Shown: one piece after another, positions 1 through 51,627 of the stretch
Layout of the letters: each line of letters starts with the position of its first letter
How positions within the stretch are numbered: the first letter of the stretch is position 1
DNA from: a bacterium
GTDB lineage: Bacteria > Vulcanimicrobiota > Vulcanimicrobiia > Vulcanimicrobiales > SCRA01
Assembly: GCA_004298675.1 (NCBI GenBank)
Contig: SCRI01000060.1
Location: forward strand, 1-64,000
Reading direction: 5' to 3'
Length of the DNA: 64,000 nucleotides
The notes under the pieces: generated by a model
Told to the model about the DNA's origin: nothing
The model's database searches: none
Seen by the model: the letters and a program-made list of their open reading frames with translations, nothing else
Program-made: the position numbers and the translations under genes

Positions 1-1615
1 CGCGCGCGAAGATCGTCGCGCGGGCGATAGCGGCGGCGGCCTCCGTATCGTTGAGCGCTTCGAGTTGGGCTCCGGTGACGATCTCGCCACACACACCGAG
101 GTCCGTGCAGAGCTTGCGCGTCACGCGCTCGTTATCGCCGCTCAAGACTTTGACGTCCACGCCCAAATGCCGCAAACGCTCGATCGAAGCGCCGGCGTCG
201 CGCTTGAGCGGATCGCTGAAGAGCAGCAGCCCGATCAGCGTCAAGTCTTGCCGTGCTCCCAGCTCCGCCGTAGCGGCAGCGGCTGCCGCGCACTCGGCCA
301 CCGCCAACGTGCGCACGCCCGCGTCGAAGAGGCGCTCGATGTACGCGCGCGTCGCGGCGTCAACGCCGGCACAGCGCGCCAGGATCGACTCGGGCGCACC
401 CTTGGCCACGAGCATCCGCCCAGCGGGGCCGTCTACCAGTACCGACGTGAGGCGCCGGTCGTAGTCGAAGGGTTCGATCTCAACGCGCCGGTACTCACGC
501 AGTTGCGCGGCCAGCGGCGCGGCAGCGCTCCACAGCGCGCGATCAAGCGTGTTGCCGCCGACCGCGCCTTGTTCCGTCCAAGCGGCTTCGTTGCAGAGCA
601 AGCCGTCCAGCAGCACGCGCAACGCGGGTGCGCCGTGCACGTCCACCGCACCGTCGAAGCCGACCCGGCCTTCGGTCAACGTGCCGGTCTTGTCGGTGAA
701 GAGTACCTGCATATCGCCGAGATCCTCGATCGCGGCCAGGCGCTTGACCACGACCCCCTTCTCGGCTAGCCGCCGCGCGCCCACCGCCATGCTCACCGTG
801 ACGATAGCCGGTAGCAACTGCGGTGCCAGACTCACCGCGATAGCCAGGGCAAAGAGCAGTGACTCCCAGAGCGGCCGCGCCAAGAGCGTGGCGCTGGCGA
901 GAAAGACCACGCCGGTAATCCAGGCCGTGATCGCGAGCAACAGGCCCGAGAAGCCGCGTAGGCCGCGCGCAAACGCGCTCTCCGGCAGCGCCCGCGCCGC
1001 GGCACCCGCGAGGGCGCCGTAGGCGGTGCGCATCCCCGTGGCGGTGACCACCGCCACGCCGGCTCCGGCGCGGACCACGCTCCCCATGACGATGCGATCC
1101 GCCGCGCGCGCCGATTTCTCGACCGGCTCGGACTCGCCGGTCAGCACGGACTCGTCGCACTCCAAGGCGTGGCTCTCCAGCAACACGCCATCGGCGGGCA
1201 CGACGTCGCCGGCCTCCACCCGGATGACGTCGCCGCCGACCAGCTCCTCACTGTCGACTTCGACCACTCGCCCGTCACGCTCGACGACGGCGCGGCGGCG
1301 CATGCGCGCGCGCAGATCCTCGAGCACGCGCTGCGAGCGATACTCGTTGACGAATCCCAAGCCGGTGCTCATGGCGGCAATGGTCAACACGATCGTGGCG
1401 TCGGTATGCTGCCCGAGCGCAATCGAGAGCACCGCCACCCCTGCCAGCAACACCAGCAGCGGATTTTGGAACTGGTGCACGAGGACCGCGGTCCAGCCTG
1501 CGCCGCGGCGCGCGACGCGATTGGGGCCGTCGCGCCGCAGGCGCTCCGCTGCCTGCGCGCTGGAGAGCCCGCGCGCGGCTGGGCTAGCCGGCGCCGGTGC
1601 CAGCCGCTGCTCCAC
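1..1615 (-). CDS. P3B-like (MgtA family) P-type ATPase, C-terminus cut by window edge
   Basis: This gene encodes a membrane cation-pumping P-type ATPase, probably of the Mg2+ (MgtA/MgtB) class. I translated it by hand from a GTG at 1615, preceded by a purine-rich stretch; 538 codons are present before the window edge. The order is an N-terminal cytoplasmic segment, two hydrophobic segments, an actuator domain with LTGES, a helix reading LAPQLLP, then the phosphorylation motif DKTGTLTEG. A KGAPES nucleotide-binding motif and LSGDN follow. The M4 sequence and the segment after it (VVVKRLAAIEDLGDMQ) resemble MgtA rather than SERCA pumps. The start overlaps the end of the preceding ATPase gene by 32 nt, so the two are co-transcribed. 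The ion is inferred from family resemblance only. The hinge GDGxND motif lies outside the window. Confidence 0.8.
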   Translation of the reverse strand, partial: MEQRLAPAPASPAARGLSSAQAAERLRRDGPNRVARRGAGWTAVLVHQFQNPLLVLLAGVAVLSIALGQHTDATIVLTIAAMSTGLGFVNEYRSQRVLEDLRARMRRRAVVERDGRVVEVDSEELVGGDVIRVEAGDVVPADGVLLESHALECDESVLTGESEPVEKSARAADRIVMGSVVRAGAGVAVVTATGMRTAYGALAGAAARALPESAFARGLRGFSGLLLAITAWITGVVFLASATLLARPLWESLLFALAIAVSLAPQLLPAIVTVSMAVGARRLAEKGVVVKRLAAIEDLGDMQVLFTDKTGTLTEGRVGFDGAVDVHGAPALRVLLDGLLCNEAAWTEQGAVGGNTLDRALWSAAAPLAAQLREYRRVEIEPFDYDRRLTSVLVDGPAGRMLVAKGAPESILARCAGVDAATRAYIERLFDAGVRTLAVAECAAAAAATAELGARQDLTLIGLLLFSDPLKRDAGASIERLRHLGVDVKVLSGDNERVTRKLCTDLGVCGEIVTGAQLEALNDTEAAAAIARATIFAR

Positions 1616-47349: not shown

Positions 47350-50300
47350 TCAGGCCTGCCCGTAGTCCTTGGTCGCCAGAGCCTCTCGTACGATGCGCTC
47401 CTGCTCCACCGCGTGTGCGCCGGCGTAGCCTTCGCTGGGTGCGGAGCGATCCGGACGGCCGACGTAGCCCCAACCGATCCCGCGCGGCAGCAAGCGCTCG
47501 CGCAGCCGCCGTGAGACGAAGGCGCGCGCGCCTTGATTGCGCGGCTCTTCCTGCACCCAGGCCACGCTCTTGACGTTGGGGTAGCCTGCGACGATCTCGA
47601 GCACACGCTCGTACGGGAAGGGCTCTAACAGCTCCACGCGCACGATGGCCAAGTCCTGCGCTTGCGCGCGCTCGGCGTTGCCGGTGAGATCGTAGTAGAT
47701 CTTGCCGCTGCAGAGGATCACGCGCGTGATCGCGGCGCGGTCGGCCACGGACGGATCGTCGATCACCGGTTGAAACTCTACCTCCGTCAGATCGCGCAAC
47801 GTAGACGCCGCAGATTTCAGACGCAGCAGGCTCTTCGGAGTCATGATGACCAGCGGGCGCGCCTTGGGATTGAGCGCTTGATCGCGTAGCATGTGGAAGT
47901 ACTGTGCCGGCGTGCTGCAGTTGGCGATCCTGATGCTGCCCTCGGCTGCCAATTGCAGAAAGCGTTCCGGACGCGCGCTGGAGTGCTCGGGGCCCATGCC
48001 CTCGTAGCCATGCGGCAGCAGCAGCGTCAGGCGTGAGGTCTGCCCCCACTTGGAGCGCCCCGCCACGATGAACTGATCGATGACGACTTGCGCATTGTTC
48101 GTGAAGTCTCCGAACTGCGCTTCCCAGAGCACGAGCGCCTCCGGAGCCGCCGTCGAGTAGCCGTACTCGAAGCCCAAGCACGCATTCTCCGAGAGCGGGC
48201 TATTGTGAACTTCGAAGGAGGCGTGGGAGTTCGGCAGATGCTGCATCGGTGAATACACCGCGCCGGTCTTGGCATCGTGCAGCACCACGTGACGATGGCT
48301 GAACGTGCCGCGCCCCGTATCCTGTCCGGTGAGCCGGATCGGTACGCCCTCCTGCAAGAGCGAGGCAAAGGCTAACGCCTCACCCAGCCCCCAATCGAAC
48401 TCGCCACCCTCGTCGAGCGCCTTACGTCTGCGTTCGAGCTGGCGCTGCAGCTTGGGGTGAACCGTGAAATCGCCGGGGACCGTCAACAACTGCTCGTTGA
48501 GCGTGCGCAACGTCTGCGCGGGCACGCGCGTGTCGACGAACGCCCCGGCGGAGCCGTTGAGCCAACCGTTGGGTGTCTCCGTACGCGAAGAGAGTGAGGG
48601 CAGGTCCGCCTTGACGCGCTTATACGCCTCCGCCAGACGCTGCGTCACGCCGTCGTAGATGGCCTTGGCCTCCTGTTCGGTGATGGCCCCCTTGGCCGCG
48701 AGTTCGCGCGCGTAGATCTCGTGCGCGGGCGGGTGCTTGGTAATGAGCGCATACATCTGCGGCTGCGTGTACGCGGGTTCGTCGGCCTCGTTGTGTCCGA
48801 AGCGGCGGTAGCCGATCAGCTCCACCAGCACGCTGCGCTGGAAGCGGCGCCGGTAGGCGAGCGCCAAACGCGCGGCGGCGATGACGCCCTCGGCATCGTC
48901 GGCATTGACGTGGATGATCGGAATGTCGAAGCCCTTGGCGAGGTCGCTGGCATAGCGCGTCGAGCGCCCCTCCGTGGGCTCGGTCGTGAAGCCGATCTGG
49001 TTGTTGGAGATGATGTGCAGGGTTCCGCCCACCGAGTAGCCCTCGAGCATGCCGAGGTTGAGCGTCTCCTCGACCACGCCTTGGCCGGGGAAGGCGGCGT
49101 CGCCGTGCACCAGAATCGTCGTGGCCTTGCGGCGATCCAGCGTCCCCGCACCGGAGGAGCGGTCGGTCTGAGCCGCGCGCGTCTCGCCTTCGACGATCGG
49201 ATCGACGACCTCCAGATGGCTGGGGTTGTTGGAGAGGATGACCTCGATGCTCTTTCCGGAGCTGGTCTGGAAGACGCCCTGGGCACCCAGATGGTACTTG
49301 ACGTCGCCGGTCACGTCGCCCTCGCTGATGTTGGCGAAGTTGACTTCGGCCATCTCGAACTCGGTGAGGATGTCCTCGAACGGACGCTGCGCGATGTGCG
49401 TGATCACCGAGAGGCGTCCGCGATGTGCCATGCCGAGATAGACGCGCTGGATGCCGTCGTCGGCGTATTCGTCGAGCGCCTCCGCCAGCAGCGGAACCAG
49501 CGCGTCGACGCCCTCGATCGAGAACGTCTTCGCGCCCAGGAACGTCCGCCGCAGATAGTGCTCGAACGCCTCGACGCTGGTCAGGCGTTCCAACAGCCGG
49601 CGTTGCTCCTGCGCGGAGAGCGGTTGCCGATAGGTGCCCTCCTCGATCTGCTGACGCAGCCAGGCGCGCTGTTCGTGACTGGAGAGGTGCTCGACCTCGT
49701 ACGCAATCGTCGAACTGTAGATTTCCTTGAAGCGGTCCAGGGCCTCACCCGCGGTGCGCCCCGGAAGATTTCCGCCCAGCGCCGCCACCGGTACGCTGTC
49801 CAACTCGGCGCGCGTGACGCCCAGGCTGGCGGGATCGAGCACGTCGTCGCCCTTGCCGGGGGCGGCGAGCGGGTTGAGGTTGGCGGCGGTATGGCCGTGC
49901 GTGCGGTAGCGCACGATCATCGCCATTGCGGCGGCAGCGGCGCGCAGCATCTGTTCGCTGGCGGCGCCGCCGGCAGCCGGAGCCGCACCGGCGGCCAAGG
50001 CCGACAGCGGCGTGGGCTGCTGTAACTGGACGGGGCCCGGGTGTGGCAGACCCAGCCCCTCGAAGGCGGCTTCATAGAAGCCGTCGCCGCCATCCAAGTA
50101 CGCTTCGATGCGGCGCAGGAACTCGCCGGAGAGCGCACCTTGAATGATGCGGTGATCGTAGGTGCTGGTAAGGGTGACGATCTTCGAGACGCCCAGCGCT
50201 CTCAGCGTGGGCTCCGGAACGGTCGCCAGGCCCGGCGGGAAGCCGATGGCACCAGCGGCGACGATGGTGCCTTGACCGTTCATCAAGCGCGGCACGGAGG

Positions 50301-51627
50301 CGACGGTGCCGATGCCGCCGGGATTGGTGAGGGTCAGCGTGGCGCCGGCTAAATCGTCGGCTTGGAGGCTATTGGTGCGCGCCTTCGCGATCAGGGCCTC
50401 GTAGGCGGCATGGAACTCGCCGAAGCTCTGCTGGTCGGCGGCGCGGATCACCGGGACCATCAGGAACCGGCTGCCGTCCTTGCGCGTCACGTCGACGGCG
50501 ATGCCGAGATTGACGCCCAGCGTGACGCGCTCGGGCGTGCCGGCGGTCGTCCGCCGGAAGCTCTGGGCCATGCTCGGGATGTCGCGGGCGGCGCGCGCGA
50601 TCGCATAGGCGATCAGGTGCGTGTAGGAGACCTTCTCCGGGCGTCCGGCCGACTTCAGCGCGGCGTTCAGCTCGCGCCGGCGCACGTCGAGCACCTCGAC
50701 GCTCACGGTCCTGAAGCTGGTCGCCGTGGGAATCTGAAGGCTCTGCTCCATGTAGCCGGCTAACGTGGCCGCCGGTCCCTTGATGGGAACCACCTGCTCC
50801 ACGGCCGCGGCAGGCGCGCCGCCATCCCGGACCGCCAGCACGTCCTCCGCCAGGATGCGGCCGTGATTGCCACTGCCGCGGACCGCGGTCAGCTCCACCC
50901 CGTGCTCCCGGGCCAGCTTGCGCACCGAAGGCGCGGCGGGTCCGCCCGGCTCGGCGCCTGGAGCAGCCGGCCGTGCAGGGGCCGGGCGAGCGGAGGCCGC
51001 GGCGGCCGGCGCGGCAGCCGTGGGGGCGGCGGCCGGGGCCAGCACCCCTTCTTCGACTTCTGCCAGTACCGCACCGATCGGCGCGGTCTCCCCTTCCTGC
51101 AGGCGCAACGCAGAAATTCGTCCGCTGACTCCGGCGGGCAGTTCGACGTTGACTTTATCCGTCTGGATCTCGGCGATGGTGTCGTCGGCGCCGACGACGT
51201 CGCCGACGTGCTTGCGCCACTCCAGCAGCGTTCCCTCGGTCACCGACTCGCCCATGGGGGGCATCACGACTTCGACCAGCCGCCCAGGCGCGGCGGGCGC
51301 CACCTCGGTCGAGGGGGCGGTGGCGGGGGCGGCGGGAGCGGCGGCAGCGGCGGGAGCGGCGGCAGCTACCGCGGCCCCCGCGCTGTCTATCTCGGCCAGG
51401 ATCGCGCCGACGCTTACGGTGTCGCCCTCAGCGGCCAACAGCCGCACGATGCGTCCGCCGGCGGGCGAGGGCAACTCGACGTCGACCTTGTCGGTCGTGA
51501 TCTCGGCCAAAGGCTCGCCTTCGGTGACGAGGTCGCCGGCCTTTTTTAGCCAGGCCGTAACGGTTCCCTCGCTGACCGACTCGCCCATCTCGGGAAGGGC
51601 GACTTGGACCAGCGTTTGCTCTACCAT
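47350..51627 (-). CDS. odhA: single-chain 2-oxoglutarate dehydrogenase E2-E1 fusion with two lipoyl domains
   Basis: This giant protein of 1425 residues makes succinyl-CoA in the TCA cycle. Domain order: lipoyl 1 (about 4-80, TTDKVDVE, Lys47), Ala/Pro linker, lipoyl 2 (about 117-192, QTDKVNVE, Lys158), Ala/Pro linker, E1/E3-binding domain (about 232-265, SVRKLAREHGVEL), E2 catalytic domain (about 285-515, TYDHRIIQGALSGEFL), then the thiamine-diphosphate E1o (about 560-1425, GMAHRGRLSV, GDAAFPGQGVVEE, NNQIGFTT). The E2 and E1 parts resemble actinobacterial KGD/OdhA, but those lack lipoyl and binding domains. The catalytic HxxxDG of E2 reads HRIIQG, as in OdhA. ATG 51627 follows AGAGGAG. No E3 gene is adjacent. 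Confidence 0.92.
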   Translation of the reverse strand: MVEQTLVQVALPEMGESVSEGTVTAWLKKAGDLVTEGEPLAEITTDKVDVELPSPAGGRIVRLLAAEGDTVSVGAILAEIDSAGAAVAAAAPAAAAAPAAPATAPSTEVAPAAPGRLVEVVMPPMGESVTEGTLLEWRKHVGDVVGADDTIAEIQTDKVNVELPAGVSGRISALRLQEGETAPIGAVLAEVEEGVLAPAAAPTAAAPAAAASARPAPARPAAPGAEPGGPAAPSVRKLAREHGVELTAVRGSGNHGRILAEDVLAVRDGGAPAAAVEQVVPIKGPAATLAGYMEQSLQIPTATSFRTVSVEVLDVRRRELNAALKSAGRPEKVSYTHLIAYAIARAARDIPSMAQSFRRTTAGTPERVTLGVNLGIAVDVTRKDGSRFLMVPVIRAADQQSFGEFHAAYEALIAKARTNSLQADDLAGATLTLTNPGGIGTVASVPRLMNGQGTIVAAGAIGFPPGLATVPEPTLRALGVSKIVTLTSTYDHRIIQGALSGEFLRRIEAYLDGGDGFYEAAFEGLGLPHPGPVQLQQPTPLSALAAGAAPAAGGAASEQMLRAAAAAMAMIVRYRTHGHTAANLNPLAAPGKGDDVLDPASLGVTRAELDSVPVAALGGNLPGRTAGEALDRFKEIYSSTIAYEVEHLSSHEQRAWLRQQIEEGTYRQPLSAQEQRRLLERLTSVEAFEHYLRRTFLGAKTFSIEGVDALVPLLAEALDEYADDGIQRVYLGMAHRGRLSVITHIAQRPFEDILTEFEMAEVNFANISEGDVTGDVKYHLGAQGVFQTSSGKSIEVILSNNPSHLEVVDPIVEGETRAAQTDRSSGAGTLDRRKATTILVHGDAAFPGQGVVEETLNLGMLEGYSVGGTLHIISNNQIGFTTEPTEGRSTRYASDLAKGFDIPIIHVNADDAEGVIAAARLALAYRRRFQRSVLVELIGYRRFGHNEADEPAYTQPQMYALITKHPPAHEIYARELAAKGAITEQEAKAIYDGVTQRLAEAYKRVKADLPSLSSRTETPNGWLNGSAGAFVDTRVPAQTLRTLNEQLLTVPGDFTVHPKLQRQLERRRKALDEGGEFDWGLGEALAFASLLQEGVPIRLTGQDTGRGTFSHRHVVLHDAKTGAVYSPMQHLPNSHASFEVHNSPLSENACLGFEYGYSTAAPEALVLWEAQFGDFTNNAQVVIDQFIVAGRSKWGQTSRLTLLLPHGYEGMGPEHSSARPERFLQLAAEGSIRIANCSTPAQYFHMLRDQALNPKARPLVIMTPKSLLRLKSAASTLRDLTEVEFQPVIDDPSVADRAAITRVILCSGKIYYDLTGNAERAQAQDLAIVRVELLEPFPYERVLEIVAGYPNVKSVAWVQEEPRNQGARAFVSRRLRERLLPRGIGWGYVGRPDRSAPSEGYAGAHAVEQERIVREALATKDYGQA

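Follow-up and report, generated by a model that had tools for sequence, protein, structure and literature searches.

How does a fused 2-oxoglutarate dehydrogenase of the OdhA type operate when it carries lipoyl arms of its own? Actinobacterial OdhA/KGD is without lipoyl domains and uses those of the pyruvate dehydrogenase (PDH) E2 (PMC10415282); the contrast with this enzyme had been drawn in the first-pass annotation of our locus, and the published work supports it. In the window (the whole 64,000-nucleotide stretch analysed), a single uninterrupted frame on the minus strand encodes 1425 amino acids from an ATG start (calculated mass about 152 kDa). A GTG start 11 codons upstream would lengthen it to 1436. 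The order along the chain is lipoyl, lipoyl, E3/E1-binding, E2 catalytic and E1 (SucA), as first annotated, and it is borne out by the open frame and by Pfam models that each exceed their cut-off (two Biotin_lipoyl, E3_binding, 2-oxoacid_dh, E1_dh, Transket_pyr, OxoGdeHyase_C). The two lipoyl lysines proposed at that stage, Lys47 and Lys158, lie at these places in TDK motifs. The Pfam search of the protein gave no match to 2-oxogl_dehyd_N (PF16078). The features, with the evidence for each, are listed here (LD, lipoyl domain; PSBD, peripheral subunit-binding domain).

47350..51627, minus strand: whole coding sequence of the LD-LD-PSBD-E2-E1 2-oxoglutarate dehydrogenase, 1425 aa (open frame, Pfam/NCBIfam)
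51388..51606, minus strand: lipoyl domain 1, aa 8-80 (PF00364; own-genome match 78.3 bits; TTDKVDVE motif)
51487-51489, minus strand: predicted lipoyl-lysine K47 (TTDKVDVE motif of lipoyl domain 1)
51049..51276, minus strand: lipoyl domain 2, about aa 118-193 (second PF00364 stretch; QTDKVNVE motif)
51154-51156, minus strand: predicted lipoyl-lysine K158 (QTDKVNVE motif of lipoyl domain 2)
50836..50937, minus strand: peripheral subunit (E3/E1) binding domain, aa 231-264 (PF02817 E3_binding, 52.7 bits)
50092..50799, minus strand: E2 succinyltransferase catalytic domain, aa 277-512 (PF00198, 144.6 bits; OdhA-type motif, insertions and clade)
50137-50154, minus strand: E2 HxxxQG motif with H492 and Q496 (OdhA-type motif)
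49948..50091, minus strand: Phe-containing C-terminal segment of E2 and E2-E1 linker, aa 513-560 (alignment against OdhA-type and canonical E2 C-termini)
50077-50079, minus strand: F517 in the E2 C-terminal segment (alignment of E2 C-termini)
47353..49947, minus strand: E1 (SucA) part with E1_dh, Transket_pyr and OxoGdeHyase_C, aa 561-1425 (Pfam, SucA models)

The source is a draft metagenome-assembled genome (MAG) and the gene contains low-complexity linkers, so a chimeric contig, a frameshift or a misjoin was considered as the origin of the fusion. The gene is likewise one frame in two other MAGs, L009 and L010 (84-85% identity), and differences among these sequences are in excess at the third codon position in LD1, LD2, PSBD, E2, the E2-E1 linker and E1 (for E1 against L009, 84/50/321 at codon positions 1/2/3). 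This bias runs through most linkers and across the E2-E1 junction, and it shows the chain to be under selection at the protein level along its whole length. In the class Eremiobacteria (Vulcanimicrobiota), all 80 full-length genes examined (78 surveyed, the window gene and that of G008) encode either one lipoyl domain or two, in frame with E2; G008 is a 3.5-Mb single-contig genome. The fusion in the window is confirmed as a real gene; an artefact is refuted for the family, and the probability that we leave to it here is negligible. The presence of lipoyl domains was scored by sequence. A long open frame by itself was rejected as a mark of fusion: G258 (1478 aa), G545 and G601 are ordinary SucA proteins with open, unrelated sequence upstream.

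The architecture has a narrow distribution. Beyond Eremiobacteria, about 20 genes of a Chloroflexota-like phylum carry in-frame lipoyl domains; genome sampling of five other phyla yielded no lipoyl-bearing fusion, and none of three actinobacterial copies was of this form, the sample of Actinomycetota being three plasmid-labelled replicons and the literature. The earlier suggestion of a distinct architecture thus holds among the phyla sampled, where it is confined to Eremiobacteria and part of the Chloroflexota-like phylum. In most fused E2-E1 proteins (Acidobacteriota, Planctomycetota, Gemmatimonadota, Actinomycetota) an N-terminal helical hairpin stands in place of the lipoyl arm. This PF16078 hairpin is present in the fusions L122, L140 and L170, which are devoid of lipoyl domains, and in E. 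coli SucA, and it is absent from the lipoyl forms tested. The hairpin fusions of Gemmatimonadota and Chloroflexota (L122-L126, L170, L188) have the closest E1 and a close E2 (about 50-60% identity), yet they lack both lipoyl and binding domains. Our literature search found no paper linking Eremiobacterota, Dormibacter or Chloroflexi with a lipoyl-bearing OdhA-type enzyme, and the form is apparently an unreported variant of the actinobacterial two-in-one enzyme.

All domains of the chain are intact. The OdhA/KGD model NF008907 scored 1444.1 bits (cut-off 878) over aa 216-1418, and the SucA models NF006914 and TIGR00239 scored 1088.6 (cut-off 764) and 980.5 (cut-off 770), whereas the SucB models fell below their cut-offs (NF004309, 240 bits against 449; TIGR01347, 226 against 378.65). 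As in OdhA/KGD (PDB 8p5r-8p5x), the E2 catalytic domain precedes E1 in one chain, with the HxxxQG motif (here HRIIQG) and with both insertions described for OdhA E2 (PMC10415282), a Phe-containing one at the C-terminus and another at the three-fold axis. The E2 falls in one clade with the OdhA/KGD type (support 100/100). Where OdhA/KGD has its N-terminal hairpin, however, the window protein has a pair of lipoyl domains followed by a binding domain. Classical SucA and SucB together hold all of these functional domains, and the N-terminal half of our protein follows the SucB-like order LD-PSBD-E2. The window protein differs in being one chain, with two lipoyl domains and without the SucA hairpin. 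Its E2 has diverged far from SucB (identity about 25-36%): Q takes the place of the conserved D of HxxxDG, and the C-terminal knob for the 24-mer is missing; the alignment showed no LLL-type C-terminal end.

The E1 part has a different ancestry. It groups with SucA of the Bacillota/Chloroflexota type, apart from the E1 of KGD, and a single clade of all fused E1s was rejected by AU tests (dlnL 171 and 254, p about 1e-67). From about residue 621 onward most sliding windows are nearer to the Bacillota/Chloroflexota type than to KGD; they revealed no clear recombination breakpoint inside the E1 of the lipoyl forms, and the first of them fails to separate the lineages. Of the initial proposal that the locus holds the same E2-E1 fusion as OdhA/KGD, the shared E2 family stands and the shared E1 does not. 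The conflict between the E1 and E2 trees shows that these fused enzymes of central metabolism have been reshuffled between lineages.

Which arm is the older depends on the sampling of the E2 tree. With all rows and canonical E2 as outgroup, the root falls inside the lipoyl forms and the hairpin forms are a derived clade (92/99), as expected if LD-PSBD-E2-E1 were the ancestral intermediate through which actinobacterial KGD arose from split SucA and SucB. When the long-branch rows are omitted, the root shifts to the hairpin forms and the lipoyl forms become one clade (100/99). The root position varies because the choice of long branches differs, and every grouping that we tried withstood the AU tests (p 0.15-0.54). 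Moreover, the E1 of KGD comes from another SucA lineage, and the present lipoyl form is therefore no direct ancestor of the whole KGD. We consider the ancestral intermediate possible but doubtful. That a hairpin arm was replaced once by LD-PSBD in the ancestor of the lipoyl lineage, the lipoyl arms being regained, is held tentatively, at a little short of even odds. The lipoyl forms appear to be a single lineage and make one clade in the E1 tree (support 99, with L110/L111 apart) as well as in the reduced E2 tree, and their outside relatives, hairpin fusions and split SucA, bear the hairpin on this chain; the instability of the E2 root counts against this order of events also. A claim of hairpin ancestry from a small first tree was dropped, since wider sampling leaves the root without a firm position.

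Collectively, the domains suggest, with a probability of about 0.78, a single-chain 2-oxoglutarate dehydrogenase with its own lipoyl groups and E3 dock, which would assemble as an OdhA-like hexamer without need of the PDH E2. The fused gene would encode the 2-oxoglutarate dehydrogenase of its genome. The E1 part would decarboxylate 2-oxoglutarate on ThDP and succinylate in cis the lipoyl group on K47 or K158; the arm would swing to the E2 domain, where the succinyl group would pass to CoA, and the reduced arm would be reoxidised by the single canonical E3 of the genome, docked on the binding domain of the chain. Given the parts that the chain contains, it is plausible that the enzyme is nearly self-contained, as first described, with E3 as its sole outside requirement.

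We infer 2-oxoglutarate as the substrate from the family models. Such models are no proof of substrate, and another 2-oxoacid, for example 2-oxoadipate, could be preferred. We consider this very improbable: the SucA/KGD equivalog models are exceeded by hundreds of bits, H260, H298 and H729 of E. coli SucA are conserved as H735, H779 and H1215, and among the genome matches listed there is no second strong SucA/KGD (NF008907 has four, of which the fused gene alone appears in the list of strong ones).

The hexamer (about 0.9 MDa, 12 lipoyl domains), which in OdhA is a homomeric assembly built from E2 trimers and E1 dimers, is expected because the E2 retains the features through which the E2 of OdhA forms trimers and not a 24-mer. 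The best solved-structure relatives over E2 and E1 are OdhA/KGD, whose chains are also the best matches of the predicted E2-E1 model across both domains. The AlphaFold monomer models reach a modest confidence, with a mean pLDDT of 65-67, and superpose poorly as whole chains (TM about 0.38), so that the case for the hexamer is made from sequence motifs only. That the enzyme forms a class of its own among 2-oxoacid dehydrogenases, with lipoyl arms, E3 dock, E2 and E1 all on the single chain of a hexamer and with no separate E2 core, seems to us slightly better than an even proposition.

Independence from PDH has to be weighed against a mixed PDH/ODH supercomplex, in which the chain, its own arms notwithstanding, would share lipoyl groups with a separate E2 and E3. 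Actinobacterial OdhA operates in such an assembly, and the co-occurrence of OdhA-like enzymes with a reduced PDH E2 core has been proposed as a signature of Actinobacteria that reflects it (PMC10415282). In our genome the only canonical lipoamide dehydrogenase (E3) lies at C43, beside separate E1a/E1b/E2 genes and an LplA/LipB-family protein. However, the lipoyl and binding domains are under clear constraint, every full-length class member examined has a lipoyl domain, the hairpin of the other fusions is missing, and the E2 of C43 keeps a canonical C-terminal knob instead of the actinobacterial insertion. We judge the supercomplex unlikely, and favor the self-sufficient chain.

The bacteria in which this OdhA-type E2-E1 with its own arms and E3 dock occurs possess a separate canonical E1-E2-E3 cluster as well. 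The lipoyl-bearing form offers a natural comparison for why OdhA borrows its lipoyl groups, and a compact single-chain dehydrogenase would be of use for structural work. The same genome encodes two further E2s with lipoyl domains, so that some sharing of arms in trans may still take place.

The gene at 47350-51627 on the minus strand encodes 1425 residues without interruption. Pfam gives the following domains in one chain.

aa 8-80 (-), lipoyl domain (LD) 1
aa about 118-193 (-), lipoyl domain 2
aa 231-264 (-), E3-binding domain
aa 277-512 (-), 2-oxoacid dehydrogenase acyltransferase catalytic domain (E2)
aa 709-1417 (-), three E1/SucA domains

This is the order read by the first-pass annotation, and the lysines that it named for the two lipoyl domains, K47 and K158, both lie in TDKV motifs. 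Among NCBIfam models, NF008907 (OdhA/KGD) scored 1444 bits and SucA models also exceeded their cut-offs; those for classical SucB remained below theirs. The closest solved structures come from Corynebacterium glutamicum (OdhA) and Mycobacterium smegmatis (KGD), with alignments that start at aa 272-293 and run to the C-terminal end. H735, H779 and H1215 of the fused E1 are the counterparts of H260, H298 and H729 of E. coli SucA, which we take to be the catalytic histidines.

The fused gene is real and conserved. The genome (3.03 Mb, 98.5% complete) has relatives labelled Candidatus Eremiobacterota (Vulcanimicrobiota), and two further MAGs carry the same single frame at 84-85% identity. Differences from both fall mostly at third codon positions in LD1, LD2, the binding domain, E2, the E2-E1 linker and E1, and thus, from end to end, selection has acted on the protein encoded by a single frame; the short linkers upstream of E2 vary more freely. 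Full-length fused matches were found in 80 of 148 genomes of the phylum (78 genes checked together, the gene in the window, and locus L143 of the single-contig genome G008), and all 80 have one or two LDs in frame with E2. Many other genomes of the class gave a partial or no strong match, which is consistent with draft contigs. In more distant families of the phylum (f13) SucA is of the usual kind, about 925-958 aa long, and loci L148-L150 served as split forms in comparisons.

The domain search across phyla placed LD-bearing fusions in Vulcanimicrobiota and in a Chloroflexota-like phylum (assignment inferred; it takes in a MAG labelled Dormiibacterota and genomes of up to 13.7 Mb). There, E2 and E1 are fused in 39 of 400 genomes; about 20 of those fetched carry LDs (L110, L111, L119-L121, L200-L204, L206, L207, L209, L210, L215-L219), several of them two, and others begin with a helical hairpin (L122-L126, L211). 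Under inferred phylum names, fusions occur in Acidobacteriota (16/80 genomes), Planctomycetota (8/119) and Gemmatimonadota (26/121), and only split SucA was found in the Armatimonadota and Bacillota samples. No LD was detected in the fetched fusions of the former three phyla or in three actinobacterial replicons; most begin with the hairpin, and some N-termini are ambiguous. Two Gemmatimonadota fusions (L177:717-4892, L178:679-4755) have neither an LD nor a clear hairpin. LD-less fusions of the OdhA/KGD type lie at L109, L122-L126, L132-L137, L170-L172, L188 and L189-L197. OdhA-like enzymes have been proposed as a signature of Actinobacteria (PMC10415282); LD-less fusions in Acidobacteriota, Gemmatimonadota, Planctomycetota and Chloroflexota-like genomes mean that they are not.

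The fused E2 domains form a single clade (100/100) on a long branch away from SucB and PDH E2. All 31 inspected have HxxxQG where SucB and PDH E2 have HxxxDG, a Phe-containing segment replaces the C-terminal knob in the alignment, and most share a three-fold-axis insertion that is shorter in Chloroflexota hairpin forms. The last two features have been tied to the OdhA hexamer and the loss of the 24-mer (PMC10415282), and the window E2 resembles OdhA/KGD in all three. In the Chloroflexota hairpin forms L122, L123 and L126, 14 residues are missing at the three-fold-axis insertion, which contacts E1 in OdhA.

The E1 part has a different history. Apart from the long-branched pair L110 and L111, LD forms make one E1 clade (support 99) with the Gemmatimonadota and Chloroflexota hairpin forms, and the SucA proteins beside it are those of Bacillota, Chloroflexota, Armatimonadota and Gemmatimonadota; KGD-type E1 (Actinomycetota, Acidobacteriota, Planctomycetota) lies elsewhere. 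Forcing all fused E1s into one clade lowered the log-likelihood by 171 to 254 units (AU p 2e-35 and 2e-67). Hence the claim that this is the same E2-E1 fusion as in OdhA/KGD holds for E2 but fails for E1: in the window's enzyme a KGD-type E2 is linked to a SucA lineage other than the actinobacterial one. Either E1 was exchanged in one lineage or fusion of E2 with SucA happened twice. In the LD fusions L110 (G149) and L111 (G148), E2 can join the other LD forms, but E1 lies outside them on a very long branch.

The N-terminal hairpin (PF16078), present in hairpin fusions and in E. coli SucA, is missing from the LD forms tested. A single switch of arm suffices, since LD forms make one clade both in the reduced E2 tree (100/99) and, apart from L110/L111, in E1 (99). 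The LD form had been suggested to be an evolutionary intermediate toward actinobacterial KGD, and the E2 root indeed falls inside the LD forms when all rows are kept; it moves inside the hairpin forms, however, once long branches are dropped. AU tests exclude neither rooting; the switch may have gone in either direction, and we consider the intermediate possible, if somewhat doubtful. Two-LD forms (L011, L091, L210, L216-L219, compared with the window) are spread over separate branches, and some have two LD1-like copies; the second LD may therefore have had more than one origin.

Among the strong matches listed for its genome, the fused gene is the only 2-oxoglutarate dehydrogenase E1. By eye, a fumarylacetoacetase-like gene lies upstream of it and one for a GGDEF-EAL protein downstream; neither is a TCA gene. 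The genome has two further 2-oxoacid dehydrogenase clusters, C43 (E1a, E1b, a 452-aa E2, E3 and an LplA/LipB-family protein) and C35 (E1a, E1b and a 493-aa E2); the C43 E3 is the only one above cut-off. In the proposed cycle, the E1 part would decarboxylate 2-oxoglutarate and succinylate the lipoyl arm in cis, the E2 part (H492) would hand succinyl to CoA, and the C43 E3 would dock at aa 231-264 and reoxidise the arm. Judged from sequence, the OdhA-type features of its E2 predict a hexamer with a mass of about 0.9 MDa (151.7 kDa x 6). Predicted models (mean pLDDT 65 for the N-terminal half, 67 for E2-E1) best matched E2 structures and OdhA/KGD, at a confidence too weak for claims about assembly. 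It is plausible from the domain content that the enzyme works independently of PDH E2, and it is a variant of the OdhA/KGD kind that has apparently gone undescribed until now. The C43 E2 keeps the canonical C-terminal knob in the alignment, unlike actinobacterial E2p. The C35 E2 (L199:2806-4287, G000) ends in ...GLEAMGPSGSL; it lacks the LLL knob that is usual in cubic E2 cores and may be a reduced core.
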